Positions 7,210-59,290 of a stretch of DNA of 64,000 bases are shown one piece after another (positions within the stretch are counted from its first letter, which is position 1; every line of letters begins with the position of its first letter). Under the pieces are notes generated by a model. The model was not told where the DNA came from. It ran no database searches and saw nothing but the letters and a program-made list of their open reading frames with translations. Position numbers and translations under genes: made by a program. This stretch comes from Channallabes apus (lineage: Eukaryota > Chordata > Actinopteri > Siluriformes > Clariidae): assembly GCA_030522415.1 (NCBI GenBank), contig CM060107.1:9258770-9322769 (forward strand), written 5' to 3'.

Positions 7210-8640
7210 GTTTCAGGATGCCAAACATCTAACCGCCCCCCCCCACCCCCGTTTAACCAAGCCGCAGAAACTTTTGCCCTTTTCTGAGAAACTGGTAGCG
7301 TGGAAGCTACTGCCAAGTATATCTCCTTGGGCACTAAGCACTGGAGAGAGGAACTACAGGATTCAGTTCTCACTTCACCCTCTGTGTTTTCAATGGCATG
7401 GTCTCCACTTCCATGAACCAGAAAGTGCGCATCTGCTGACAAAGCTGCCAGGGAAGGGGGCCATGGAACATGTTCCCCCACCAGACAGTGAGTCAGGCTA
7501 CTACAGCCGGTATTCTTGGTTCCCAAGAGGAACGGGGGCTGCGTCCAATTTTTCAGATTCTGCGGGCTCTCCCGCTATCTGAAAATCAATGAATACAGTT
7601 CAAATGTTGACTGTCAAGGTGATTGCTCTCAACCCTACCAAGCAATTGATTTCTGACAATCGATTTAAGGATGCTTACTTTCATACAGAAACATTGCTAC
7701 AACACAGGAAGATCCTGAGGTTCGCTTTCGGGGGCGAAGCTTACCAGTATCGGGTCCTTCCATTGGTCTAGCTCACCCGCACATATACAAAATGCACGGA
7801 TTTAGCCCTGGTTCTTACGGGCATCCGGTGGCTAGTGCTTAGACATCAGCATGTCGTCCTAGCTCATCTCTGTTCTCAGGATTGAGACCCAATGCCACGA
7901 AAGCGTGCTCTTTCCTGTTCAGAGGACAACACATTGGGTGCCATATGGGATTCGATCGTAAGCGGGCACAGCTGTCTCCCGCTCGTGTCGAACCCATTCT
8001 CAACACCCTCAAGGAAAACAAGCTAGACCAGAGAGTGACCATCACTTTCAGACATCCTAGCTCTCATGGCAGCTGTATCCACGGTGACACCTTTGGGCCT
8101 TCTGCACATGATAGCATTCCAAGTTGTGGCTAAGAACCAGGGGATTTCACTAGGGCCAATCCCCAATATGGGTTACGCGCCAGGTGCTTCGTACCCTTTC
8201 TATGTGGTTCAGACCCCGGTCTCTACTCTGGATTCCACTCTAAGTTCATCTTGTCATCGCTAGGCTAACGACAGATGCTTCCCAGACTGGGGTGCGGTCT
8301 CAGATGACCGTCCAGCCCAAGGGAGCTGGAAAGGCTATCTTCTCGCATGGCACATCAATTGCCTCAAGATGATGGCTCTATTTCTGGCCCTAAAGCACTT
8401 CCTCCAGCAGTTGAGAGGCTGCCATGTCCTAGTGCGTTGGACAACACTATGGCAGTCTCATATATTATCGCCAGGGCAGACTGTGCTTGCGCCGCTAACA
8501 GCTAGCGCACCAGGTTCCTGTCCCTCAGGGCGATTTACATTTCAGCATGGATGCGGGAGCAGTAGTACTGTCCAGTCTATCTCTGACACACGGGGAATGG
8601 GAACCCCACTCCGAAGTAGTCAGGGGGAGATTTTCATGTA
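7210..8640 (+). pseudogene. DIRS1 reverse transcriptase / RNase H remnant
   Basis: Parallel to the DIRS2 RT frame at 46136-47875 with many shifts and stops. Recognisable pieces: the LVAWKLLPSISPW leader near 7290, VPPPDSESG near 7470, FGGEAYQYRVLP near 7729, LLHMIAF near 8098, and the RNase H-like MMALFLALKHFLQQLRG near 8369. The DIRS RT-RNase H order is kept, but no catalytic YxDD box survives in frame. Inactive. Confidence 0.7.
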
Positions 8641-8691
8641 GCAAGGCGGACCTCTTGCCTTCCAAGATATGCTTCGCCTTTTACTGCTCTT

Positions 8692-9750
8692 CAGATTTAC
8701 GTCCACCACATCAGCTAGTGGCGTAGGTCAGAGCAGCTTCTACAGGTTTTGGATGAGAGATGCTATTGCCCTCTCCTATGAGGCGCGTGGGCTCACTTCG
8801 CCTCTAGGAATCAGGGCTCTTTCAACCATGGGGATTGCCTCATCTATTGCATTATCAAGAGGTATTCCCCTGCAGCAAGTATCTGCTAAGCAGGTGAACC
8901 CAGTCCACTGCCGAATTGTTTCAGTGCTGGAGTTTCCGTCCTCGCGTCTGTGCCCTAGTACTCTCAGGATGTACGTGACTGCATCCTCTCTCAACTATCT
9001 TCCGAGAGCTCTATAAACCCAACAGGCACCCTATTGCTTTTGAAGCCTTCCGTCCTCCGTGCTTACAGCTTCGGAGCAGGAGAGACTTCACTTGCTGTGT
9101 CCAGCTTGTGCCCTTCAGATCTACGTCCACTGCATCAGCTAGTGGCGTAGGTCAGAGCAGTTTCTACATGTTCTGGATGAGACATACTATTGCCCTCTCC
9201 TATGAGGCGCGTGGGCTCACTTCGCCTCTAGGAATCAGGGCTCTTTCAGCCAAGGGGATTGCCTCATCTATTGCACTAGCAAGAGGTATTCCCCTGCAGC
9301 AAGTTTCTGCTAAGCAGGTAAACCCAGTCCACTGCCGAATTGTTTCAGTGCTGGTATTTCCGTCCTCGGGTCTGTGCCCTAGTACTCTCAGGACGTACGT
9401 AACTGCATCCTCTCTCAACTATCTTCCGAAAGCTCTATGAACCCAACAGGCACCCTATTGCTTTTGAAGCCTTCTGTCCTCCGCGCTTACAGCTTCGGAG
9501 CAGGAGAGACTTCACTTGCTGTGTCCAGCTTGTGCTCTTCAGATTCACATCCACCGCATCAGCTAGTGGCGTATATTGCCCTCTCCTATGAGGCGCGTGG
9601 GTTCACTTCACCTCTGAGAAGCAGGGCTCACCCAACCAGGGTGATTGTTCCAGTCTCACCAGCAGGAGGTATCCCCTGCAGTAATTGTGTTGCGCGAAGG
9701 GTTGGTCCTCCCCGCACACATTTCTTACATTTATAATCTGGATGTTCATG
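8692..9750 (+). pseudogene. DIRS1 tyrosine recombinase remnant in a 424-bp tandem array
   Basis: The unit beginning CAGAT(T/C)(T/C)ACGTCCAC recurs at 8692, 9116 and 9540, an exact 424-bp period (two full units and a partial third). Each unit puts C-terminal recombinase text (DAIALSYEARGLTSPLG, near 8760 and 9187) before N-terminal text (SAKQVNPVHCRIVSVLEF, near 8886). DIRS2 has these in the opposite order (58398 then 59054). The array therefore arose by duplication across a deleted gene. It cannot encode a normal recombinase. Confidence 0.75.
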
Positions 9751-9753
9751 CTA

Positions 9754-10114
9754 GGCGGCGCGGTGGGGTAGTGGTTAGTACTGTCGCCTTGCACCTCCAG
9801 GGTCCGGGTTCGATTCCCGGCCAGGCTCAATTCCCGTCTCTGTGTGCATGGAGTTTGCATGTTCTCCCCGTGCTTGGTGGGTTTCCTCGGGGTACTCCGG
9901 TTTCCTCCCACAGTCCAAAGATATGCTGGTTAGTCTAATTGGCGTTCCTAAATTGCCCGTAGTTAGTGTGTGTATGTATGTGTGTGTGCCTTGCGATGGA
10001 TTGGCACCCTGTCCAGGGTGTACCCCGCCTAGTGCCCGCAGTCTCCTGTGATAGGCTCCAGGTCCCCTGCGACCCTGAACACAGGATTAAGCGGTATAGA
10101 AAATGAATGAATGA
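9754..10114 (+). mobile_element. tRNA-derived SINE inside DIRS1
   Basis: A 361-bp SINE. Its tRNA-like head has a box A-like GGGGTAGTGGTTAGTAC and a box B-like GGGTCCGGGTTCGATTCCC. The body has GGAGTTTGCATGTTCTCCCC and the tail is CGGTATAGAAAATGAATGAA. It is flanked by a perfect 12-bp duplication ATGTTCATGCTA (9742-9753 and 10115-10126). It resembles fish Mermaid/V-type SINEs by the shared core, from memory. Confidence 0.85.
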
Positions 10115-10244
10115 ATGTTCATGCTACTCCGGGCTCACTGCCACAGAGTTAGCTGCCCAGGTATAGTTCTGAGACCTTCTTGGCTTTGTGCGCACACGCT
10201 ACACAACCTTGGGGTCCAGACACCTGTAGTGCGGCGGCGTTTGT

Positions 10245-10615
10245 ATTCTCGTTCCCATAGCGTTTTACGCAGCATCGAGTGTAGCCTTGAAAGGGAATGT
10301 CTCGGGTTACTTTGCAGTAACCCTGTTCCCTGAAAGGCAGGAACGAGATGCTGCGTCCGAATGCCGCACTACCTTGTGACCGGACGTCCGTTCAGACAAA
10401 TTAATCTGAGGTTTCTTGCCGGCTCACCTGTATTTATAGCCTCCACCTGCATCTGATCAGATGACGTCACTTGGTCGAGGCTATATATAGCCAAAAACGT
10501 TGGCGTGTTTTCACAGTACGCTTCACGACCGGCAACGCGACAAAATGGTTCCCATAGCGTTTTACGCAGCATCTCATTCCCGCCTTTCAGGGAACAGGGT
10601 TACTGCAAAGTAAGC
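10245..10615 (+). repeat. DIRS1 right terminal repeat and internal complementary region
   Basis: Contains GTTCCCATAGCG, AGCATCGAGTGTAGCC, TGAAAGGGAATGTCTCGGG, GTAACCCTGTTCCCTG and, to the right, the inverse of the left repeat with TCAGATGACGTCAC. Ends GCAAAGTAAGCCGAGACG, as DIRS2 does at 59676-59693. The pieces complementary to both ends match the internal complementary region that DIRS elements use to join their ends. Confidence 0.75.
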
Positions 10616-11234
10616 CGAGACGATTTAGAGAAAGCGTACGACAGGGTGCCGAGAGAGGAGCTGTGGTGTTGTATGAGGAAGTCTGGAGTGGCAGAGAAGT
10701 ATGTTAAAGTTGTGCAGGACATGTATGAGAGCTGTAAGACAGTGGTAAGATGTGTTGTAGGTCTGACAGAAGAGTTCAAGGTGAATGTGGGTCTGCATCA
10801 AGGATCGGCTCTAAGCCCCTTTTTGTTTGCTATAGTGATGGACAGGATGACAGATGAAGTTAGACAGGAGTCTCCATGAACTATGATGTTTGCAGATGAC
10901 ATTGTGCTTTGTAGTGAGAGCAGGGAACAGGTGGAGGAAAATTTGGAGAGGTGGAGGTACGCTCTGGAAAGCAGAGGAATGAAGGTTAGCCGCTGCAAGA
11001 CGGAATACATGTGTGTGAATGAGAGGGACCCAAGAGGAACAGTGAGGCTACAAGGAGCAGAGGTAAAGCAGGTGCAGGATTTTAAGTACTCAGGGTCAAC
11101 GGTCAAGAGCAACGGAGAGTGTTCAAAGGAGGTGAAGAGACGAGTACAGGCAGGTTGGAATGGGTGGAGAAAAGTGTCAGGTGTGTTGTGCGATAAAAGA
11201 GTATCAGCAAGAATGAAAGGAAAGGTGTACAGGC
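10616..11234 (+). pseudogene. LINE-A copy 1 central RT
   Basis: Resumes with DLEKAYDRVPREELWCC and continues with LHQGSALSPFLFAIVMDRM (near 10795), the catalytic MMFADDIVLCSES (near 10883) and FKYSGSTVKSNGECSKEV (near 11082). This corresponds to residues 550-752 of the copy 2 protein. A TGA replaces Trp just before MMFADD (10877-10879). The frame is cut at GKVYR by LINE-B. Confidence 0.8.
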
Positions 11235-44740: not shown

Positions 44741-45680
44741 TTGGTCTATATTTGTATTACTGGTGCTATTCTTTTGCATGTTATATTTTGCATTTTGCAC
44801 AATTATTCTATAATAATAAATAAATTATAATAATAAATTGACATTTGATGTGATTGATGTGAGAACGCTAAGTGCCTCTCATTCCAACCCACTGAGAAAC
44901 CTCGGCCAATCACTTCTCTCTATCCCCCGGATGCAGGAGGCTACAGCATCCACCGGGAATCAAACTAACGATATATAACAAAGCTGATTTTTTAAGTTGA
45001 TCATGAAGGGTTAGGGACTGAACAGAAAAACTACAACACTCGCAGAGAGTATGTGTACAAGTCAGGGTCTGTTTGTTCACAGTCCTATCCTAGTTAAAAA
45101 CTTTTCCAACCACTGTTGGCTTGATTACATCTATACAAAATTATGTCTAATATTTATTTCCATTTATCACTGGCAAGATATGATCTGGCAACCCGGCTAC
45201 AGAGAAGCCCATATAGTAGATAGTGAAGTGAATGAGAAAGCGATTTTTGGCACAGTGGCTGTCTTGATCCAGATGTAGTCTCAAAATCTGTTGTGGGAGC
45301 AGAAACGCTTTCTCATCTGATCACCAGTAGAGATTCTTCTGACTGATTACTGATAATTCTCCTGTTACTGCTGTATGCAATAATGAGATTAGTAATAGAA
45401 AGTCCTAGGTGCTCTTGCTTGAATGGGGGTGTCCAATGTCCGACCCCAGGGCCATACAGTATGTGGCCCATAGACAGATGTTATTTGCCCTTCAGAATAA
45501 CATGTTGCAATATTCCTTTCACCTAATGATACAAGATTACAAGAGACTTCTTCTGCAATACACCTTTAGTTTACTAAATATTATTTTCCCATGGCTGCAG
45601 ACAAAAAGTGCTGATTTACAGGTTAGAAGGTTATTTTAAAAGAAATGACAGAAATCACTAAGCATGGAAAATGATTTCAT
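44741..45680. other. No gene seen
   Basis: No supported feature. GGGTGTCCAATGTCCGACCC near 45427 may be a worn hAT-like terminus. Confidence 0.4.
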
Positions 45681-45890
45681 GTTCCCTTTCAAAGGCTTTT
45701 ACTCGATGCTGCGTGAAAACGGTATGGGAACCATTTTGTCACGTTGCCGGTTGTGAAGCATGTGTGCAAACACGGAATTTTTGGCTATATATAACCTCGG
45801 TCAGGTGACGTCATCTGATTAGACGCAGCTGGAGGTTATAAATACTAGTGAGCCGGCGATAAACCTCAGATCATTTGTCTTCATGCTGAC
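45681..45890 (+). repeat. DIRS2 left terminal repeat
   Basis: GTTCCCTTTCAAAGGC, TGCTGCGTGAAAACGG, GTGACGTCATCTGATTAG and TCAGATCATTTGTCTTC, matched inverted at the right end. Confidence 0.8.
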
Positions 45891-46135
45891 ATTGTGATCG
45901 CGTGTGTGCAGCAAGCATTTAAAAGCCATTCTAAACAGAGAAAAAAACAATAAAACTCACCAGAAAAAAAGGGCGGAGTTTAGTGTCTCATGCCCGTGCG
46001 GTAAGTACTTGTACCTCTTTCGGAGAAGCTGGCAGCGTGGAAGCTACTGCCAGGCATATCCCCCTGGGGTTTTAAAAAACTGTAGAGAAAGGATACAGGA
46101 TCCAGTTTACATATCGCCCTCCGCGTTTCAACGGC

Positions 46136-47875
46136 GTGGTCTCCACTTCCGTGATACCGGAAAGGGTGCATTTTCTGAGTTCTGAACTCCAGAAACTACT
46201 CCAGAAGGGAGCCATAGAACAGGTTCCTCCTCCAGATACGGAGTCAGGCGTATTCCTGGTCCCCAAGAAGGATGGGGGTCTGCGTCCAATTCTGGATCTT
46301 CTCGGTTTGAACCGCTATCTCAAAAAATGCAACTTCAAAATGTTGACCATAAAAACTATTGCCTCACAAATCCAACCACAGGATTGGTTTGTGACAATAG
46401 ATTTAAAGGACGCATACTTCCAGATAGAAATTTTGCCACAGCACAGGAAGTTCCTGAGGTTTGCTTTTGGCGGGAAAGCCTACCAATTTCGTGTTCTTCC
46501 ATTCGGTCTAGCTCTATCACCCTGCACATACACGAAATGCATGGATACAGTTCTGGCTCCCTTGAGACTCCAGGGCATCCGCATTCTGAATTACATAGAC
46601 AACTGGCTAATCCTGGCCCAGTCTCAGCAGCTAGCACTTCGACACCGGGATGTCGTCCTAGCTCATCTTCATTCGCTGGGATTGAGACTCAACGCCATGA
46701 AAAGCGTTCTCTTTCCGGCGCAGGTGACAACCTACTTGGACGTCAGGTGGAATTCGATCACTATGCAGGCACATCTGTCTCCTGCTTGCGTCGAATCCAT
46801 AAACAACGCTCTGAAGGAAATCAGACTGGACCAAGAAGTGACTGTACATCACTTACAAAAATGTTTAGGCCTCATGGCAGCTGCATCCACGGTGATACCT
46901 TTCGGTCTCCTGCACATGAGAGCTTTTCAGCTGTGGCTAAGAGCCAGGGGAGTTCACATGAGAACAAATCCCCGAATTCGGATAAGGGTTATGCGCAAAG
47001 GACTTCATACCCTTTCTATGTGGTTCAAACCCTGGTTTCTCACCTTGGGTCCCACTCTAGGTCCGTCTTGTCGTCGCAAAATGCTAACGACAGACACTTC
47101 CCTTACCGGCTGGGGCGTGGTCTTGGATGGCCGTCCAGCCCAAGGGAGCTGGAGAGGCCACCTTTTCGCATGGCACATCAATTGCCTCGAAATGATGGCT
47201 CTATTTTTAGCTCTACAGCATTTCCTCCAGCAGCTGAGAGGCTACCATGTCCTAGTGCGGGTGGACAGCACATTTGTAGTCTCCTACATAAATCGCCAGG
47301 GCGGCCTGCGTTCGCGACACCTGAACCAGCTAGCACATCAGGTTCTGCTCTGGGCTCAGGACAAGTTCCTGTCCCTCAGGGCGATTCACATTCCAGGAAA
47401 CAGGAATGTGGGAGCAGACTTTCTTTCCATACAAGCTGTGAATCATGGGGAATGGAAACTCCACCCCGAAGTAGTCGCTCAAATCTGGGAGAGATTCTTT
47501 ACAGCAGAAGTGTACCTCTTTGCCTCCCAGGACACTGCACAATGTCCCCTCTACTACTCTCTGACTCATCCAGCTCCCCTGGGTCTGGACGCGATGGCCC
47601 ATACGTGGCCCAATTTACGCCTCTATGCGTACCCTCTGGTAGCTCTGCTCCCGGGAGTCCTGGCGAGGGTCCGTCAACACGGTTTGCGCGTCTTATTGAT
47701 AGCGCCCCGTTGGCCGGCCCGAGTATGGTTCTCAGAGATAATATCTCTCCTCAACGGCTCACCTTGGATGATTCCAGTGAGGAGGGATCTTCTGTCTCAG
47801 GCGGAGGGGACAATATTTCATCCTCGGCCCGAGCTCTGGAACTTTCACGCTTGGCACCTGAATGGGACCAATTGA
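46136..47875 (+). CDS. DIRS2 reverse transcriptase, RNase H and methyltransferase-like domain
   Basis: A 579-codon frame; the domain may begin a little upstream in other phases. RT: GVFLVPKKDGGLRPILDL near 46249, FVTIDLKDAYFQI near 46387, LPQHRKFLRFAFGGKAYQFR near 46434, then YIDNWLIL near 46594 where the catalytic box should be YxDD. RNase H: TTDTSLTGWGVVLDG near 47088, CLEMMALFLALQHFL near 47182, IHIPGNRNVGADFLS near 47383. The end has LIAPRWPARVWFSEI near 47695, like the DIRS methyltransferase-type domain. A shift near 47865 ends it early, before the recombinase linker. The D-to-N change suggests an inactive polymerase. Confidence 0.85.
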   Translation: MVSTSVIPERVHFLSSELQKLLQKGAIEQVPPPDTESGVFLVPKKDGGLRPILDLLGLNRYLKKCNFKMLTIKTIASQIQPQDWFVTIDLKDAYFQIEILPQHRKFLRFAFGGKAYQFRVLPFGLALSPCTYTKCMDTVLAPLRLQGIRILNYIDNWLILAQSQQLALRHRDVVLAHLHSLGLRLNAMKSVLFPAQVTTYLDVRWNSITMQAHLSPACVESINNALKEIRLDQEVTVHHLQKCLGLMAAASTVIPFGLLHMRAFQLWLRARGVHMRTNPRIRIRVMRKGLHTLSMWFKPWFLTLGPTLGPSCRRKMLTTDTSLTGWGVVLDGRPAQGSWRGHLFAWHINCLEMMALFLALQHFLQQLRGYHVLVRVDSTFVVSYINRQGGLRSRHLNQLAHQVLLWAQDKFLSLRAIHIPGNRNVGADFLSIQAVNHGEWKLHPEVVAQIWERFFTAEVYLFASQDTAQCPLYYSLTHPAPLGLDAMAHTWPNLRLYAYPLVALLPGVLARVRQHGLRVLLIAPRWPARVWFSEIISLLNGSPWMIPVRRDLLSQAEGTIFHPRPELWNFHAWHLNGTN

Positions 47876-47914
47876 GTCAAGCCGGCCTTTCAGCTGGCGT
47901 AATTGACACCATCC

Positions 47915-47916
47915 TA
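47915..47916 (+). repeat. TA target duplication of the 10.4-kb insertion
   Basis: TA here and at 58330-58331. With one TA removed, the codons on either side are in one phase (VIDTIL on the left, SARAPSTRRFYAF on the right), which fixes the insertion borders. Confidence 0.8.
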
Positions 47917-48085
47917 CAGATGTCGCCATTAAAAACCTGCGTTTCGAGAAAAGGGATCCCGTGACTTGCCGCGGCTTTGCGCGGCTGCGTGCGGGAAGCT
48001 GTGAACATGCCCTTCATTACCTGTAGGGGGCAGTCGTGTTTCAGTCTGAAGTATTGTGTGTCTACTGAAGCCGAAAATGTGTGCA

Positions 48086-48100
48086 AATTAAACTGCGCAT
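48086..48100 (+). promoter_or_regulatory. NRF1-like promoter motif
   Basis: CTGCGCATGCGTG, a near-match to the palindromic NRF1 site common in CpG-type promoters, just upstream of a GC-rich exon with a strong donor. A second, perfect TGCGCATGCGCA lies near the other end at about 57783-57794. Confidence 0.45.
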
Positions 48101-48203
48101 GCGTGTTTGGAGTCGCTGTGCCGGCGCTGTGGATCAGTCGGTTGTGGATCATCACGGAGGTTACAACACGGTGTCGCTGGAGCTGGAGTTTGTCGTGTTC
48201 GAG
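48100..48203 (+). other. Putative 5' untranslated exon with GTAAGT donor
   Basis: GC-rich for this window, CpG-containing, ending TTCGAG|GTAAGTTTAG at 48203/48204, a near-consensus splice donor. The exon start is unknown. No AT-rich core promoter. Confidence 0.4.
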
Positions 48204-48644
48204 GTAAGTTTAGCTTTCTTTTTTGGATGTGATTCTCGCTTTCATGACTCCCAATTAATGTTCATCTTAATCTCAGGACGTACAATTAGCAATTTCAGTG
48301 TTTAATAGTGTGGAGATTCACAAAACACCGTTTTCGTGTAAAAACCTGAACCTACGGAGCCCCCATGGGTCCTGTGGTAAATAAATAAATAAAATAATAA
48401 CGAACCGAGCGCGCGGATTAATACACCGAGATGTGTGTTTCTTACCCCCACCCGAGTGAAAACGGCGTCTTCAGACAAAGCCTCGCCAGTTAGATGCCAT
48501 TTCTGAACAAACTGAGTCGTGTGTGTTAAAGCATTAAATGGTAAAAGAGCACTAGCAATAAACGTTTTTTTTCTGAAGCCGGACTTTATTAATGAGTTAC
48601 GAGTAAAGAACCTGTACATATGTTCATACAGTATTGACAGCAGC

Positions 48645-49642
48645 TCTAATTTACTGCGGTAAAGCCAGCCGCGGTTCAGAAAAACACGGTCAAGCCAGCC
48701 GCGATTGATTTTAGTGTGCGCGCATATTACAGCGATTACGGTAGTTTCATGAACAACACAGAGAGAATGCCCCATATCTGAAAAATGCTGCAGTAAAATA
48801 GTTTCATATGTGGTGTGTATATAGTATGGGACGTCCTGAATAAGAACTGATCATTGTTTTTTTCTACTTATTAGAAATGGGGTCTTTATACCCCTTTAAA
48901 GTGTAATAATGTCCAATATCTCAAAAATGCTGCAGTAAAATAGTTTCATATGTAGTGTGTATATAGTATGGGACGTCCTGAATAAGGACTGATCATTGTT
49001 TTTTTCTACTTTTTTTTTTATCATATAATGTGTGTACATTATATGGGATAAAAACTGACCATGGCGTTTTATACTTACTAGAATTTATTTTTTCATAGGT
49101 CTCTGAAGTGAAATAAAGGCATTTTATTTAACTTTTTTCCCCATTGTGAACATTTGTTTATTTGACCTCTCTTCCAAAGCAGACGTTAATCCTCATTATA
49201 GAAAACATTCATTGAAGAATAACTGCTACTTTTGAACAGTAAAACAAAATAAAAATCAATTCTGGTATTTAGAAAGACTAAATACATTATTTTGTCTGTT
49301 TTCTACGAATTCTGCTGTAACTTATCTACATAAAACAATTATTTGAATGGTGAATATTTAAGAAAAATATTGTAACAGACAACCGTCAAAGTCACCAATA
49401 AATAACACGGATATTAAAGCAGAAATGCAAATAAATAAGCAAGTAAAAATTGACGAGCATGTTGTATTATCTCTCAGTCCTGGGCGTCTAAATGAAAAGC
49501 GCTCTGAAAGCGCGTTGTCTCTGTGTCGGTCCTGAAACTACCGTAACCACTGTAATATGTGCGCACACTAAAATCAATCGCGGCTGGCTTGACCGTGTTC
49601 TTCTGAACCGCGGCTGGCTTTACCGCAGTTCTAATTTGTCTA
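48645..49642. repeat. Foldback repeat with ~105-bp inverted arms
   Basis: 48645-48755 and 49528-49642 are inverted copies with few mismatches. Each carries two tandem motifs (GGTAAAGCCAGCCGCGG and GGTCAAGCCAGCCGCGA), then ATTGATTTTAGTGTGCGC and TTACGGTAGTTTCA. About 770 bp lie between. Confidence 0.8.
48773..49015. repeat. 142-bp tandem duplication
   Basis: AAAAATGCTGCAGTAAAATA at 48781 and 48923; GTATATAGTATGGGACGTCC follows in both. About 1.7 units. Confidence 0.85.
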
Positions 49643-49925
49643 AATCGCATTGCAGACAATAAAAATAAGTCGAGTCATCCTGTGACCCTACATGCTTAAT
49701 CTTTGCACACATGATTCTTGCTTCTCACTTTTTCCTTAATCCCTCACTGTTCTATCTTGTATTTTCTAACGGTGTCAGAAACTTTGTGTTAGTAGCACTG
49801 CTTGACGCCTTCCTCTTTTGTAATTTGCTTTGGATAAAGGCAAACTTACAAAAGATGAAGAAATGCCTGAATGTAGTTGTACGAATAAAAGATTATGTAA
49901 TGATACAATGTAAATATTTTCACAG

Positions 49926-49982
49926 AAACAAAGTGTAAAGATGAGACGTGAATCTGAAGAGGATCTCTTTGATGATTGCCTG
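49926..49982 (+). CDS. Putative start-codon exon of the cargo gene
   Basis: Preceded by TATTTTCACAG (acceptor at 49925) and followed by GTAAAG (donor at 49983). Contains ATG at 49941 and 14 codons reading MRRESEEDLFDDCL. Acidic. Too short to identify; supported only by splice-like borders and position between the 5' exon and the recognisable terminal exon. Confidence 0.35.
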
Positions 49983-50379
49983 GTAAAGCATTGTTTTCTT
50001 ATTAATTATACAATTTATTAATACCTTGAATATAGTGTTTGTTGTATTGGACAGAAGCATATAAATGCAAATGTATATATAAATGAGTAATTATTGAACG
50101 AATTTTCATGTTTGGACTAACCCTTTAAATACAAACTCAGCATTCATCATAGGATTTCCTGACACTGTAAAGCCATCTCATGCCATGTTTTACTGATGCA
50201 AGATAAAGCAATTTAACCCAAGTTTAACAATATGAAGTATATGAAGTGATGGTCATTTTTTTATCATCATTTATTTTTATTATTATTTTTTTCTCAATGA
50301 AGTCAGCACAGGTTGAAGCAATTCAGATTTTTTTTGCTTCTCAAAATAAATGATTTATTTTCTTGTAAATTTTATGCAG

Positions 50380-50980
50380 GGGGACAGACGAAGTGACACC
50401 TTCTTAAAATCCTTGTCGTCCGTGCTGTTGAAGGGGAAGAACCGGTTGGTGTATCCATAATCCTTGAAGGAGAGGCTATTTTCAGAAAGTTCTTCTAGAA
50501 CTTGTTGGGATTAAGCTATCACCAAAAGTGCAAGCTTTAAAGATGAAGTTATCATCTTAAAACATTTGATTTGGCTTGACTACAAGTGTTTACATGTTTT
50601 GTTTACATGTTTAGCTTAAAATGTTTTCATGCATTAAGGTTTCAATGGCATACTTTTAAGTGCACTAGTCCAGAGTGCTGATTTGAAAGTTGCAACTTCA
50701 CTGCTTCAGAGGGCTATTACGTTTTAACGTTTATTCTACAGTTTGTTTAAAGTATTTTCTGCTGCATTTTATTTCTAAATGAATGCTGTATTTTATTTAT
50801 TTATTATTTTACACAATTTTGTTTAAAACAAGTATTTCAGGCCCTGGTGCCGTGCAGTTTTTTTCTATGGATGCAAAATTTAGCTGAATGCACTTTTATT
50901 AAAAAGACAACTTGGATCTAGACTGTGAATGTCACAAATATTTGGTAATGTTGGCGAATAAACTGTTTAATTATATTTTA
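50380..50980 (+). pseudogene. Terminal exon recalling a multicopy fish protein C-terminus, deleted inside
   Basis: After the acceptor TTTTATGCAG (50379), the frame at 50397-50498 reads HLLKILVVRAVEGEEPVG followed by VSIILEGEAIFRKF and then a stop. Another frame at 50489-50560 reads VLLELVGIKLSPKVQAL then KMKLSS and a stop. From memory, these two blocks resemble consecutive parts (the xPxGVxIxLEG strand and the LSPKVQALKxKL end) of a large uncharacterised fish family often named SAMD3-like, with a piece between them missing here. AATAAA at 50957-50962 could be the poly-A signal. Most likely a damaged copy; the family link needs a protein search. Confidence 0.4.
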
Positions 50981-51179
50981 GTTGTGTGATTTATGAAAGA
51001 TATAGATGAAATAATTACTTAAGTTTCTTTCCAAAACATAAATTAGCAATGTTTACATTATTATAGGGAGTAATAGGTAGCAAACCTACGCCCTTGTGTG
51101 TGTGTGTGTGTATGTATATATATGGAAATATAATTAATATTTTCGTGTTTAATTACAAAAAAAAAACATTTTAATGGTT

Positions 51180-51865
51180 AGTGATTGTTGCAGACATTTA
51201 CACTATTTTTGAGAACTATTAAGTTCTCCTTCAACGTGTCATAGCCGATAACTGCCCCTTTGAAGCCTTTGAATGGTGTTAAAAATACTTGCAAAACAAG
51301 TATTGCAGCCATACATTGGAGGGAACTTCTGAGGTGGTCAGTGATTGATGGCACGGTCGGTCGGAGGGGGTTGTGATCACACCTATAGATCTTTTGTTCT
51401 AGGCTATCGGTCAAATATCTCTCCACTTGGAAGCAAAAACATGCAAGGGATTTCAGCATCTCGACGCACATACTAAGCTGTTTATAAAGTAGACACTGTT
51501 TGTTTTTTCATTTTGTAATCTTTCCCGTGTTTACCGTGTACTGTACAATGTATATTCATTTTTTAATGAATTACTGTAAATAAACTACACATTCCGTTGA
51601 TTTACCAGAAATGACTTTTCTGTTTTTTGTGTGTGCTAAACTAAACTTCAGGGTCAAAGTAATAGCGATTTTATTTGAAAAGTATTATATATTTACAATG
51701 CTGATAAGTTCAAGCTTAGATTCATATATAAACTGCTTCAAAGTCTTTCCGTGACCGCTGAAATCCGACAGACGCAGGGCTCAAGGGATGTGTGTGTGTG
51801 TGTGCGCGCGTGTGTATGTGTGTGTGTGCGGGTTAGTGTGCCTGTCCTATTTCAGCGGATTTTTC
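51180..51865. other. No firm gene; partial unit of the downstream repeat
   Basis: CTTCAAAGTCTTTCCGTGAC and CTGAAATCCGACAGACG (51735-51780) match 52385-52430, so a partial third unit of the duplicated segment lies here, with (GT)n beside it. The 97-codon minus frame at 51178-51471 has no motif I recognise. Confidence 0.45.
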
Positions 51866-51972
51866 CGCTACCGCAGATCAGTTCATCAACTTGTAATATA
51901 TACATTTTAGGAATATATTAACATGTGCAGACATTTAAGGTTGCGCTGCCCTCTCTTGCCCCTGCGTAGAGC

Positions 51973-52010
<38 letters not shown>

Positions 52011-53287
52011 CTATCTATCTATCTATCTATCTATCTATTATATAAATACACATTTGGAATCTGCATCTACATTTTCTGTTACAAGTATAGAATTAGGTTC
52101 AGCTGAGACTCATGATCAATGGTGTTAGGGTACTTATGTAGTGATAATTAGTTTCAGCCAAATCATTAAAACTAACAATGGACTATGACACTCTTGAGAG
52201 GGGATATGAAGGTGTTATTCATTTATTTATTCTCTACAAGGGTGCGAACAACAATACAGACCAAACTATAACTCTCTCTTACTACTATAAAAAGTCTAGA
52301 CATAAACAAACAAAATACAGCTTTTTTTCCTCAGAGGTAAACGGAAAAGTGAAGTTGTTCAGCTGTTCACTGTCACTGCAGCTTCTTCAAAGTCTTCCCA
52401 CTCCGTGACCACTGAAATCCGACACGACACCACGTTAGGCTACGTCTTGACTCATTTGTATACCGACGTTGATTGGATGTTTCCCGAGGGCTCAGGGGAG
52501 TGTGTGTGTCTGTGTGTGTGTCTATGTGTGTGTGTCTGTGTGTGTGTGTCTATGTGTGTGCGTCCGCGCGGGTACTTGTTCTACTGTTATAAAAACTCTA
52601 AATATAAACAAACAAAATACAGCTTTTTTTTCAGAGGTAAACGGAAAAGTGAAGATGTTCAGTGTCACTATGCAGATGTTACACTCAGTGGAGTTACCGA
52701 AATCATTGGTTTAGTCCTCATTGAGCTTTTGTTCCTCTTATGTGAGCATAAACAGTGAAACATTCCTCAGGTTTATAATAGTGAACCACGTTCCCGTCGA
52801 ACGAAACGAGGCATAATCGTGGTGTTTGCTTCGGTTATGACACACCATAGTTTATTACCTGCTGTGGTAGATCTGAATATTTATTCAAACACAATAATAA
52901 AGCTTTATATCCTCAGGAGGGCTCAGTACATTGTTTTAGCGATAGTTTCACGGAAGCGAGTTCAGAACTAATCTAACCAAACCAAAAAAAAAATAGCTGG
53001 ATAGTTTTGTTCTTCAGAAAAGATATCTGAAGTCACAGAGAGATCCTGCTCTGTAGAAGCTGCCTCAGTCTATTTGTGCAATTACTCCATCCCGCCCTTA
53101 TCAATGATAGTATAGTAATGATGTCGCTGTTGATTATCTGTTCTTGTGCTTTTGAAAAATAATTTTTTTTTCTAAGAACATGTAATAGGATGGTGTTTAT
53201 TGCATATATGTATGTTTTTTTGTAATAGGCAAGTATATCAAAATAATTTAACTGTTTAATAGACATGGGTGTTTTTTTTTACAGATT

Positions 53288-53569
53288 CACTGTAAAACAT
53301 GAAAATAATAATAACCTATTTGTGAGGTAGAATTAACCCAACATTCCAGTTAAAATGAACCAACAAACCCCAAACATATGGGTAGAACATTTGAACCATT
53401 TATGTGGTAGAATTAACCCAGCATTATAGTTAAATATGACCTAGCATTTGGATTGAATATTTAACCCATCTTGCTGGGTTAAATTAACCCAGCATTTAGT
53501 TAGTCCTATATTTACCCAGCAGCTGGGTTAAAAACAACCCAGATTGTTTTTAACCCAGCATTTTTTAGG

Positions 53570-53572
<3 letters not shown>
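53288..53572. mobile_element. CACTA-type MITE
   Basis: Starts CACTGTAAAACATG. Reversed, the end reads CACCCTAAAAAATGCTGGG. The interior repeats AATTAACCCAGCA and GCTGGGTTAA motifs, familiar from fish EnSpm/CACTA-type MITEs. 285 bp, non-coding. Present in copy A only. Confidence 0.65.

Positions 53573-53638
<66 letters not shown>
53573..53638. repeat. (TA)n microsatellite
   Basis: About 33 TA units directly after the MITE. Confidence 0.95.
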
Positions 53639-53644
<6 letters not shown>

Positions 53645-53689
53645 GACATGCGTGTGTCATTTTAATTCAAATGAACATTTTAATCTGTG

Positions 53690-55431
53690 CATGGGCGTCA
53701 ACTCGCACGTTCTGTAATGTTCCATTGTCTTTTAGAGCCCATTACTAAAGCAGGTTACTAAAACCTGGCTTACTACCTATAAAAAATATTTCAATTTAAC
53801 TCATGGGTCTCAATCACAGATGACACGACAAATTATATACTCTGAAACGTTCATTTGAACATTTAAAATGTTAATACAAAAATACAAAAACATGAATACT
53901 AATGTTATCATGGTGTAAATTATTAACATTAGGTTAGGTCCTGCCCTTAATTAATTCATATTATAATTACTTTTACATAGTATAGTTACTGGACTGACAT
54001 TACCAAAACTAGCTATTTGATTTAGCCTTTCTAAAATCAACCCATATATCATTTATAATCAGAAAACATAAAACATATTATGATCTGTTCAACAGCCCAT
54101 CTGTTTTAATTTAGTTTGTATTTTTTATTATTCATAAGACAACCTTTCAGTTTTGTAAATATTTTAGTTATAGTGTGTTAAGTCTTACTTTAGGTTAAAC
54201 GTTTTTGAGAATTTGACCATCCAGCTTAGATAAATGTTATGTCATTGATAAAATCTGGATTAAGGATATTTTATTATATAATTATATATTATTGTGGTCT
54301 GGGGGTTTGCGTGCCTCAACACAATTCAGCAAATACAATACTGTTACTATACAGTAAGGTCAGGTAAAAACAGTGCTCGAACATGATGCCCCCCTCCCCC
54401 CACCCCGTGTTGTCTGGTCTAGAACGGCGCTGCCTCTGACCGTCTTTTGTCTTGTAAATGAGTATTCTCACTCACCTTCCAATCCCCCCAGCGCACACAC
54501 TCTGTTTGTACTGTAAACTGCACTGTAACTGTGTTTGCTAGGGCACTTGGTTATACACAGTACTTTAATGTATGGAACACTTACTTAACTTACTGGTTTG
54601 GTTTAAATATCGCTTGTTACCTTATTCAACAAAATAAATTCATTATTAACGTATTGAAGTATTTTAGTTAAGGACAAAAACTGTGCTTGTGTTTAGAACT
54701 GCTGAACAGCCGAAAACACACACACACCCATCCCCCCGCCAAAAACACACACGCACACACAGAGCAATTAACACTAGGAGTGGAAGGTGAAACCTCAATG
54801 GAGAATACCAAGTTTGTCGTTGCTCTTTTGGAGTTCTTAAAACCCAAAACATTTATTTATACTGAGAAAAAATTATTATGGGTCACAATCACAAACACAA
54901 ATACATATAATCAAGTGTTTAACTGGTTTCATTTGTTTCTATGATCAATAATTATTATTATTATTTTCAGCCCAACTCTTTGACTATTTAAAACAAAGTT
55001 GTGTCCCATTTTTTGCCCATTGAAGTTGTTGGTTCAACTAAACAATTTTTAAATACCCAAACAATCCCCCAAAATTAAAACACGCAAAACATGACTTTAA
55101 CAATTCAATTTATTCTTCCAAAACTAGTCAAAGTTAAAACAGTAATTTATATAAAACAGATGAATACATGTTGTCTTTTTGCTTAAAGTTCATTAAACAA
55201 CCCGGATACACCAGCTGCTTATAAGTCTCTATCTATAGTCCTTTTACATTAAAATAAAAAATTTTCAAATATCAAAACTATTACATATTTGTTATTAATA
55301 ATGTTATTACTTAACAGTTTAAGTCTTTGTTTCCCCCAAAGTACTGTATCAGACATTTTGCAGTTCTATGTTCAGAATATACAGTAGACCTGATCAAACA
55401 TCATTCTAAAGCTGTCGGACTGTGACGTCAT
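53690..55431. other. No gene between the two duplicated copies
   Basis: AT-rich, with a C-rich patch near 54385-54410 and CA runs near 54716-54765. No coding motif seen. Confidence 0.45.
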
Positions 55432-56475
55432 CGCTACCGCAGATCAGTTCATCAACTTGTAATACATACATTTTAGGAATATATTAACATGTGCAGACAT
55501 TTAAGGTTGCGCTGCCCTCTCTTGCCCCTGCGTAGAGCCTACACACACACACATCTATCTATCTATCTATCTATCTATTATATAAATACACATTTGGAAT
55601 CTGCATCTACATTTTCTGTTACAAGTATAGAATTAGGTTCAGCTGAGACTCATGATCAATGGTGTTAGGGTACTTATGTAGTGATAATTAGTTTCAGCCA
55701 GATCATTAAAACTAACAATGGACTATGACACTCTTGAGAGGGGATATGAAGGTGTTATTCATTTATTTATTCTCTACAAGGGTGCGAACAACAATACAGA
55801 CCAAACTATAACTCTCTCTTACTACTATAAAAATTCTAGATATAAACAAACAAAATACAGCTTTTTTTCCTCAGAGGTAAACGGAAAAGTGAAGTTGTTC
55901 AGCTGTTCAGCTGTCACTGCAGCTTCTTCAAAGTCTTCCCACTCCGTGACCACTGAAATCCGACACGACACCACGTTAGGCTGCGTCTTGACTCATTTGT
56001 ATACCGACGGTGATTGGATGTTTCCCGAGGGCTCAGGGGAGTGTGTGTGTGTCTGTGTGTGTGCGTCTATGTGTGTGCGTGTCCTCATTGAGCTTTTGTT
56101 CCTCTTATGTGAGCATAAACAGTGAAACATTCCACAGGTTTATAATAGTGAACCACGTTCCCGTCGAACGAAACGAGGCATAATCGTGGTGTTTGCTTCG
56201 GTTATGACACACCATAGTTTATTACCTGCTGTGGTAGATCTGAATATTTATCCAAACACAATAATAAAGCTTTATATCCTCAGGAGGGCTCAGTACATTG
56301 TTTTAGCGATAGTTTCACGGAAGCGAGTTCAGAACTAATCTAACCAAACCAAAAAAAAAAAAAACATCCGAAGCTTCAAATAGAATGAACGAACTAATGA
56401 AATTGATATATATGTAATTGATATACTGTATATACAGACGTGTGTGTGTCATTTTAATTCAAATGAACATTTTAA
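55432..56475. repeat. Segmental duplication copy B
   Basis: Shorter partner of copy A. It lacks the internal repeat and the MITE/(TA)n block. Direct orientation, about 3.57 kb away. Confidence 0.9.
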
Positions 56476-56822
56476 TGCTTTCTGATACACTTATCAACTT
56501 ATCCACATAAACTTATCAACACATACTCTCCGTGCACGCACATACAATCTCTAAAAAAGTAAAATTAATAACATACATATACAAATAAACAAAAATATAA
56601 ACGTCTATGTATATTGAAGTTTACGGTGAACGCAGAGTCGGCTAAGCACATGTGATGACGCGCGCGCCCTCACCTCTTGTTACGGCTGCCTATTTGGCCA
56701 AAAAATAATTGAACGATATGCCTGGTCCTGGAAAGAGACAATAAATATATATATATTTTTATACATTTATTGCATTGTTTGTTGTTTACAGTCAAGCCAT
56801 CAACATACAATAAAATGTAAAC

Positions 56823-57008
56823 ATGAGATCTAAACTAAAAACTGTGCTCCCTGTGCTGGTGCTGGCAATATCATCTCTTTGTTCTGCTGTCTCCGGCTCC
56901 CTCCCTGGTCCTGAACCGTACCACCATACATACCAGATCAAGAACTTGAAGATGAAGATTATATCTCTCTGGTCTTCTCTCTCTGACGGGTTCCTCCCTA
57001 GTTTCTGA
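56823..57008 (+). CDS. Small ORF with signal-peptide-like N-terminus (speculative)
   Basis: 61 codons beginning MRSKLKTVLPVLVLAIS then SLCSAVSGS: a basic start, a hydrophobic run of about 14 residues and small residues at -3/-1 of a possible cleavage site, followed by a Pro/Ser tail with no motif. The start context AAACATGA is acceptable. No homologue known to me. It may be chance in a 10-kb unit with many short frames. Confidence 0.2.
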   Translation: MRSKLKTVLPVLVLAISSLCSAVSGSLPGPEPYHHTYQIKNLKMKIISLWSSLSDGFLPSF

Positions 57009-57960
57009 TGATCTCAATTAGTTTGTAGTGTTGCTTGTCCAAGGAAACCAGTAATCTTGCTTGAAGTGGAGCAGATATAATTCTCAGAAACTCATTACTG
57101 ATCTTAAAAAAAAAAAAAAAAAAGGTAAAAACAAAAACTGGACTGGCTCAAGTTCTTATGTTAGCAAATCTTAATTACAGTGTGTATAAAGTATAGAAAA
57201 CAGTACACTACAAACAGCACTCACTCCAAATTAGCTTGTTCTATGTTTACGTCACTTTCCTATTAATTTTTACATCGTTAACCAACGGTACTTAAATATA
57301 ATTATTTTCTTCGGCGCCGCTGACTTACTGTATAAACTCCGGTGTTTTTGAAAATCACCACGTTAGTTAGCTAATGCTAATGCAGGTAATATAGGTGGTT
57401 TTAGCTACAGTAGCAAACACGGACACAAAACTCAATCTACAAAGTAGTTGTTCCTGACATAAATCATGAATTTGCTCATAGAAGAGATACATTTAACATA
57501 GAAATGACATGAGTTTGCTTTCTTACCTGGTTTAAATGAGTTTTCTTTGAGAATCTCCACCCGCATGTGATTCAGTCCGTGAAAATGCTGCGTCATGAGG
57601 TCATGAGACACGGTTTGAAGCAGAAATGTCCTTTGTGAATGGATTAGATTTAAGTTTAATCAGGGGCTTTAACTAACAGTAACTGAAATACAGGTTCTGA
57701 TATCCTTCCTTACTTGTTTCAACGTCATGCTCCGGTTTGAGGCGGAAATAAAATTATACCGGCAAAACTATGGTCTAAAGACTGCGCATGCGCAAATCAC
57801 ACTCAACCAAATAAGAGTACCTTGATCAAAATGAAATATTTCACTTTGGTTTCCTGCTGTAAACAGCATTATACTAAAAAAAAAAAAAAAAAAAAGATTC
57901 ACCCATAAGCATAAATTAGACACTTCAGTTAAAAAGAGCAAATTATTTTTTTTACTAATG
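57009..57960. other. No gene; CpG-type promoter-like patch
   Basis: Poly-A runs at 57103-57124 and 57876-57896. GACTGCGCATGCGCAAATC near 57780 is a perfect NRF1-like palindrome. Around 57550-57780 the sequence is less AT-rich and could be a promoter reading leftward, but no exon can be defined. Confidence 0.35.
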
Positions 57961-58329
57961 GAATGAGAAAAAAAAACACATTAAACTAGGTTTACTTTTT
58001 TCAGTGGATCCCTCAATAATTTCTGTCTCCTTTGCCTGTGTTTGATAATGTGAAGCACATATACACTCATTCATCATGAAAGATCTATTATAAAACAAAA
58101 TAAAATTCATGTTCGCTTCAGCACTGTTCATCCGCGTTCTTACATTCATTGTTGTACTTGGTCCGGCTTTTAGATAAAGTCCTTCCATGCGCCATCTGGC
58201 GGATATTCAGTGAAGCGCAACACATTTATTTAAAATTCCCGAATGTTGCCTCCGGCAAGACCCGGCACGCCGCGCGCTAAATTGCGGCATCCCGCGGGAA
58301 AACACGCAGGGTTTTAAGGGCGACATCTG

Positions 58330-59290
58330 TAAGTGCTAGGGCTCCCTCCACTAGAAGGTTTTATGCCTTCAAATGGAAGGTATTCGAGAGCTGGTGCATG
58401 GCAAAGCAGGTGGACCCAGTCCACTGCCAAGTCCTTTCAGTGCTGGAATTCCTGCAAGAGAAATTGTCCATGGGCTTGTGCCATAGTACCCTCAGAACGT
58501 ACATGGCCGCTCTTTCAGACTGCCACGTCCTGACTGAAGGGGTTACTGTGGGAAATCACCCTTTAGTTGCCCGTTTCATTCGTGGAGCTAAACGGTTGAG
58601 GCCACCCACTAGAGTCACTCCTTCGTGGGATTTGTCTATCGTGCTCGAAGGTCTAATCGACACTCCTTTTGAACCACCAGAGTCAGCGCCCGACAAGCTT
58701 CTGACTCTCAAGATGGTTCTTCTTATAGCCATTACCTCTCTCAAGAGACCTGCGTGCATTATCAGTCTCCCCATCTTGCCTGGACTTTGCCCCTGGGCTA
58801 GTCAAGGCCATTCTGCATCCTCACCTAAACTACCTACCGAAAGTTCTTTCTCAACCATGCACCCTGTCATCCTGGAAGCCTTCTGTCCTCCGCCTTTTGC
58901 GGATTCGGAGCAGGAGAAACTTCACCTACTGTGCCCAGTACGTGCTCTTCAGGCCTATGTCCACCGCACCAGCCAGTGGCATAAGTCAGAGCAACTCTTT
59001 ATGGAGGCCGCAACCGGGGGGCGGCCACCACCACACAAACTCTGTCACACTGGGTGAGAGATGCTATTGCCCTCTCCAATGAAGCGCGTGGACTCACTTC
59101 GCCTCTAGGAGTCAGGGCTCATTCAACCAGAGGGGTCGCCTCATCTATTGCTCTTGCAAGAGGTACTCCCCTGCAACAAGTGTGTGACGTGGAGGGTTGG
59201 TCCTCTCCGCACACATTTGTAAGATTTTATAGTCTGGATGTCCATGCAACTCTGGGCTCACGAGTCCTCGAGTCAGCTTCCCAGACATGA
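58330..59290 (+). pseudogene. DIRS2 tyrosine recombinase, frameshifted
   Basis: Replaces an integrase in DIRS elements by recombining a circular DNA copy into the genome. N-terminal SARAPSTRRFYAFKWKVFES from 58332, then VDPVHCQVLSVLEFLQEK (58410). The catalytic core has an Arg in TSLKRPACIISL (near 58735), the RAHSTRGVASSIAL block with the second Arg (near 59115) and the likely nucleophile Tyr in FVRFYSLDVHA (near 59220). The frame changes between about 59000 and 59054, separating the first Arg from the rest. With the 10.4-kb insertion upstream it is doubly broken. Confidence 0.8.

Follow-up and report, generated by a model that had tools for sequence, protein, structure and literature searches.

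A young family of long, probably non-autonomous TA-inserting elements in Channallabes apus, with one copy in a DIRS-like retrotransposon

The stretch of Channallabes apus DNA analyzed here (64 kb from contig CM060107.1, in the following called the window) contains a complete element of 10,413 bp with terminal inverted repeats (TIRs) at positions 47917..58329 (+), which interrupts a DIRS-like retrotransposon. The element is in all probability (roughly 0.87) one recent insertion of a young, high-copy family of long (8–15 kb) non-autonomous DNA transposons that are moved in trans. A preliminary description had offered two readings, and the second of these, a large non-autonomous carrier that depends on an unseen partner for its movement, was supported by the genome: in 14 of 14 further copies the same ends and the TA on both sides were found, and none of them contained a transposase-like frame of its own.

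Borders and complete copies of the element

The two terminal inverted repeats of 26 bp (47917..47942 on the plus strand and 58304..58329 on the minus strand) have 0 mismatches to the pattern CAGATGTCGCCNTTAAAANCCTGCGT, and 24 of 26 positions of the right repeat are identical to the left one. When up to 3 mismatches were allowed, the pattern matched both element ends and no other place in the window, and the largest count in 100 dinucleotide shuffles was 0. The flanks read ...CCTA, then the unit, then TAAG..., and the two copies of the TA target-site duplication, at 47915..47916 and 58330..58331, were read from these flanks and from the junction frame. The terminal dinucleotides of the element are CA..TG. 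Reconstruction of the empty site by deletion of the unit plus one TA yielded a single frame (DTIL/SARAPSTRR at the junction) that is open for 101 codons leftward and 133 codons rightward, whereas the host frame is broken if both TAs are kept or both are deleted. The borders given in the preliminary description, and its statement that the DIRS frame is in phase after subtraction of the unit and one TA, were therefore right.

That description had left room for the case that the ends occur only at this locus. This was checked in the assembly from which the window was taken (1,164,683,209 bases or 1.16 Gb, 93 contigs), and thousands of matches were found. The terminal pattern CAGATGTCGCCNTTAAAA with at most 2 mismatches had 2,638 matches on the plus strand and 2,669 on the minus strand, together 5,307, compared to 30 and 40 (70) for the reversed control pattern. 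With two ends per copy, the copy number would be up to about 2,600, and a ceiling estimate of 2,600 copies of 10.5 kb corresponds arithmetically to 2.4% of the genome. Not all copies are of full length: among the first eight end loci, one was a derivative of 762 bp, and the interiors of three others (L003, L005, L006) were different.

The arrangement of the ends was analyzed for 100 listed matches, all of which are exact and lie within the initial 40.9 Mb of contig C1. Among these, 28 adjacent convergent (+/−) pairs were no more than 40 kb apart, and in 25 of them the distance was under 16 kb; a strand-shuffle null gave a mean of 9.2 and a maximum of 20 convergent pairs in 10,000 shuffles; only 3 adjacent divergent (−/+) pairs were under 16 kb. 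The 25 convergent pairs span 8,043–15,262 bp, with a median of 10,529 bp. The great length, which had been noted for the window unit, is accordingly a property of the whole family and not of one odd copy. The exact-end pairs occupy about 280 kb (0.7%) of this 40.9-Mb part of C1, which is a lower limit there. Along C1 the family looks clustered: 33 of the 100 listed exact ends lie in 10–15 Mb and 25 in 20–25 Mb, together 58. No second large family was seen with ends that start with TACAGATGTCGCC but lack the T one base later (21 versus 8 in the control). In a viral contig collection, the ends had matches at two loci, which share a single phage-like context and were judged to be chance, and in a separate collection of genome contigs none matched.

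Fourteen of the 25 convergent pairs closer than 16 kb, picked by size, were read whole, so that 15 complete copies including the window unit could be compared. All 14 further copies had both ends, and their 12-bp flanks were all different; TA/TA was present in 15 of 15 copies, and the full copies that the preliminary description had proposed to look for do exist. One of them, e12, aligned with the window unit over the full length at 96.7%. These results bear on the reading that the unit is not a transposon but a segmental duplication or an assembly join with chance inverted ends inside the DIRS-like retrotransposon. The duplicated blocks in the interior would fit such a reading, but it is already refuted by the 14 other copies with the same exact borders, TA/TA and different flanks, unless all of them are assembly errors, and it is also at odds with the frame that is restored by removal of the unit and one TA.

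The age of the copies was estimated from the Kimura two-parameter (K2P) distance to the consensus. For the left 620 bp, 12 of 15 copies were within 1.6% and 13 of 15 at 0.3–2.0%; individual values were 0.8% for the window unit, 2.0% for e5, 4.0% for e6 and 11.3% for e9. The right 170 bp formed two groups, with 10 copies at 0–1.2% and five (e1, e2, e6, e7, e9) at 5.2–7.4%. Judged by these distances, most copies are young. The insertion in the window would likewise be recent, because the surrounding DIRS frames are still open.

The interiors of the copies are mosaics of shared blocks, and the ends are kept for about 166–170 bp even where the interiors differ. In L003, the similarity to the family is practically confined to the first ~170 bp, at 97%, and the same is true for L005 and L006 at 79–87%, apart from a few short inner blocks in the L005 element. 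In two pairs of 14.2 and 14.3 kb (L058 and L059), the middles consist of the same family plus inserted foreign blocks. The 762-bp derivative (L007) keeps the two ends and is flanked by TA left and right, which would be expected if nothing but the ends were needed. TA precedes the end in 7 of the first 8 end loci.

Cargo and the question of autonomy

The earlier observation that no transposase is visible in the unit held up: its longest stop-to-stop frame has 182 aa, and a six-frame Pfam search of 48001–57902 (the unit minus the outermost 84 and 427 bp) revealed no transposase. In a survey of the 15 copies with a threshold of 150 aa, no copy had a transposase-like frame of the element's own, and eight had no frame at all. 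Frames of 364 and 150 aa in e5 look retroelement-like by eye and one of 193 aa in e13 looks Tc1-like, and these stretches are common to few or no other copies; the frames of 150–188 aa in e3, e4, e10, e12, e13 and the window unit look non-coding. Two Pfam matches were judged weak and rejected, one to UPF0697 (E 0.0014, 19.1 bits versus a cut-off of 27), which lies in a repeat rich in microsatellites, and one to Ig_TMEM131L (E 0.033). A Myb/SANT-like relic in e7 (E 0.017, 15.9 bits, below the Pfam cut-off of 27) is a lead only; the stretch recurs in e1, e6, e7 and e9.

Four putative exons were recognized in the unit. A putative non-coding first exon (48102..48203, +, with a provisional start) was read by eye and ends at a GTAAG donor. 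A relic coding exon KQSVKMRRESEEDLFDDCL with AG/GT borders (49926..49982, +) was read from the sequence and from comparison of the copies. It is followed by a relic last exon with a broken frame and an internal deletion (50380..50557, +), of which e7 has a fuller form (...YFQKVLLELDGIKLSPKVQALKMKLSS). A relic middle exon, ISNEFLRIISAPLQARLLVSLDKQHYKLIEIIRN*GGT..., lies near the right end on the opposite strand (56962..57102, −) and was present in 10 of 15 copies. The three relic exons presumably belong to a multicopy teleost family that is annotated as SAMD3-like; when the middle exon was used as query in a protein search, 11 candidates were obtained, none at E≤10, so the parent gene was not found.

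The exons are relevant for the possibility that the elements are autonomous and encode a transposase in small spliced exons that were missed by the open-reading-frame and Pfam scans. The AG/GT-bordered exons and the weakness of six-frame Pfam searches on short exons speak for it, and so does the exon KQSVKMRRESEEDLFDDCL, which is unbroken with its AG/GT borders in 13 of 15 copies. On the other hand, the middle exon contains an in-frame stop in all 10 copies in which it is present, and the last exon, where present, has a frame change or stops, although its second part is open for about 60 residues in e1, e6, e7 and e9. Furthermore, six-frame Pfam searches of three copies (the window unit, e7, e8) revealed no transposase domain, and the 762-bp derivative is too small for a transposase. 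Autonomy of these elements is therefore highly improbable.

The remaining cargo of the window unit consists of nested insertions and repeats. A MITE-like insertion (miniature inverted-repeat transposable element) of 977 bp with 118-bp inverted ends (48653..49629) is bordered by the 8-bp duplication TCTAATTT at 48645–48652 and 49630–49637, and the nested insertion is supported by L008, which carries the uninterrupted site with a single TCTAATTT. A short nested element CACTGTAAAA ... TTTTTTAGGGTG, found in the sequence at 53288..53572 (+), is presumably EnSpm-like. Self-comparison revealed a repeat unit with a first copy at 51866..52993 (+) and a second copy at 55432..56360 (+), which is 94–99% identical to the first in two main blocks; these direct repeat blocks are matched in other copies too. 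The motif TGCGCATGCG, presumably NRF1-like, is present at 48094–48103 and 57783–57794, one near each end and beside putative exons that read inward. Rfam and tRNA scans were empty.

The mobilising enzyme and comparison with known systems

For the movement of the family, we infer an enzyme of the DDE type that acts in trans and requires the ends only. A DDE transposase from another element would bind the short TIR and the conserved subterminal region of about 170 bp, excise the unit and join it at a TA, which would be duplicated, while the cargo of relic exons, nested insertions and repeat blocks would be passive.

Candidate partners were searched with three Pfam profiles. At 24 loci of the pogo type (PF03184, 21 places), of which about 1.5 kb was read per side, exact CAGATGTCGCC was not present (0/24), and 12 of the 24 hold 11-mers with 1–2 mismatches to it. 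Among the best 150 of 1,018 candidates for PF01359, 145 matched the profile, and the only frame above 300 aa in this set was an open mariner-type frame of 375 aa (L060:1793-2917), the nearby 18-bp inverted repeats of which are unrelated to the family ends. PF02992 (EnSpm type) had 11 matches, four with frames of 718–885 aa. One of these 11 loci was read, and no family end was found within the 5.5 kb read around its EnSpm-like frame of 761 aa (L061:1919-4201). The other long frames lie at C2:37171989, C3:18172790 and C4:23992368. The length of 761 aa is repeated at C3:18172790, and the equal lengths of the two frames hint that an EnSpm family was active in this genome not long ago.

Non-autonomous elements of the Tc1/mariner (ITm) group have CAG... 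terminal inverted repeats, are moved in trans and range from MITE size to a few kb. The window family resembles them in the TA duplication, in these repeats and in its probable movement in trans, but it differs in its length of 8–15 kb and its conserved end of about 170 bp, and no link to an enzyme of this group was found.

CACTA elements are often long and have long subterminal regions and captured pieces of genes. EnSpm/CACTA forms the CMCT clade together with Mirage and ESTA, with duplications of 2–5 bp, which are TA in ESTA (PMC12730594, available excerpt). The 5′-CA..TG-3′ termini of this clade and the TA duplication of ESTA (PMC12730594, same excerpt) are also found in the window family. 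ESTA differs in being fungal and in encoding a transposase and TET/JBP (PMC12730594, excerpt), while no CMCT enzyme could be tied to the ends of the window family. An EnSpm-like enzyme with TA duplication (CMCT clade, ESTA- or Mirage-like) is favoured over Tc1/mariner because of the conserved long ends and the long cargo, and has slightly less than an even chance. An enzyme of the Tc1/mariner type comes second and is itself unlikely; one of another or unknown lineage is unlikelier still.

Several other groups were compared. The hAT duplication is 8 bp. This length is also given for Zisupton (PMC12730594, excerpt), and both groups were rejected because the window family has a 2-bp TA duplication. 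ISL2EU/PHIS elements are alike in having a 2-bp AT-rich duplication (PMC4482050, available excerpt). However, the duplicated AT of ISL2EU lies within A|AT|T (PMC4482050, excerpt), in contrast to the TA in 15 of 15 copies, and this group was rejected as well. Viral domains did not turn up in the Pfam scans of the window family. The target of Teratorn is TTAA, whereas the window family uses TA. Teratorn and other giants resemble the family as large teleost DNA transposons with cargo, but Teratorn has a piggyBac-like enzyme and its cargo is viral (PMC6431247, available excerpt).

Animal Pack-TIRs are alike as TIR elements around gene fragments (PMC8277862, available excerpt). TcMariner accounts for 115 of 370 of them, their duplicated regions have a median of 224 bp, and in frogs 3 of 23 are multicopy (PMC8277862, excerpt); the units of the window family have ~10 kb and a high copy number. 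As to the gene fragments that characterize Pack-TIRs, relic exons were seen in the window unit, and the protein search for a parent gene had no match.

No account of such a family was found in the papers searched by end sequence or by related descriptions; an entry in Repbase or Dfam is possible. Non-autonomous TIR elements as a kind are already known, and non-autonomous TA elements of 8–15 kb at such a copy number would be a new form of them. It had also been proposed that the unit may represent a new superfamily, in which case an enzyme outside Pfam would act on these ends. This is compatible with the literature text matches to the end sequence, all of which were unrelated, and with the pogo-type loci and the intact mariner, which were read without encountering these ends. 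However, a TA duplication combined with CA..TG termini is already known from several lineages (PMC12730594, excerpt), and the search did not extend to DDE_3 (Tc1), Harbinger or the majority of other enzyme types. We consider a new superfamily to be quite improbable; the copies themselves speak neither for nor against it, since it is the transposase that defines a superfamily and no partner turned up.

Three observations weigh against a non-autonomous family that is moved in trans. First, an autonomous partner was not found in the PF03184, PF01359 and PF02992 searches, in which few loci were read; this failure says little, as the search covered these three profiles and a minority of their candidates. 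Second, one of the eight end loci, L005, has no TA. Third, transposition is reported to drop above a cargo of about 6 kb (PMC6431247, excerpt), and so many copies of 10 kb would not be expected.

The third point is at the same time what makes the family informative. Elements without a transposase of their own are usually short if they number in the thousands. A young non-autonomous family of 8–15 kb runs against this shortness as well as against the cargo limit of about 6 kb (PMC6431247, excerpt), and is a natural test of which ends, enzyme or chromatin feature allow long cargo. The conserved ends of ~170 bp and the 762-bp derivative suggest a minimal construct for such a test.

CTCF-like motifs and the host retrotransposon

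A loose CTCF core pattern, which was written after the sequences had been seen, matched only two sites in the window, both in the unit and convergent. The left motif (48020..48033, +) starts at element position 104 and the right motif (58189..58202, −) starts 128 bp from the right end, and both point inward. The convergent pair was present in 14 of 15 copies; e6 has the right motif only, and e14 has a third match inside. Because about 0.7 chance matches per window are expected (arithmetic with equal base counts), the presence of the motifs alone is weak, but the fixed convergent pair is worth testing. The left motif is intact in five further end loci that were aligned (L003, L005–L008), which is no evidence of selection, because the neighbouring bases are conserved too.

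Transposons that carry CTCF sites are reportedly known in mammals. We speculate that each copy, with a convergent CTCF-like pair about 10 kb apart, may seed a self-contained cohesin loop, so that the genome would hold hundreds to thousands of such loops, and that the loop may aid the element. It would bring the far ends together for transposition or insulate the element from silencing. We give this idea only a slim chance; if true, a loop would explain the good spread of a 10-kb non-autonomous unit, and the paired motifs make the idea directly testable.

The host of the insertion is DIRS-like, as shown by its reverse transcriptase/RNase H frame and its inverted ends (45680–45880 versus 59663–59463). 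The left part (46076..47916, +) contains a frame of 599 aa with reverse transcriptase and RNase H domains, followed by the start of a downstream frame, which continues in the right part (58332..59290, +). This downstream frame is presumably the DIRS recombinase; the right part had no Pfam match at E≤0.01. Of the interrupted DIRS of the preliminary description, the left half and the inverted ends were confirmed, and the recombinase half did not obtain the same support. A second DIRS-like stretch, partly rearranged, is present at 7270–10626 of the window and is related to the host DIRS (71–88% in blocks).

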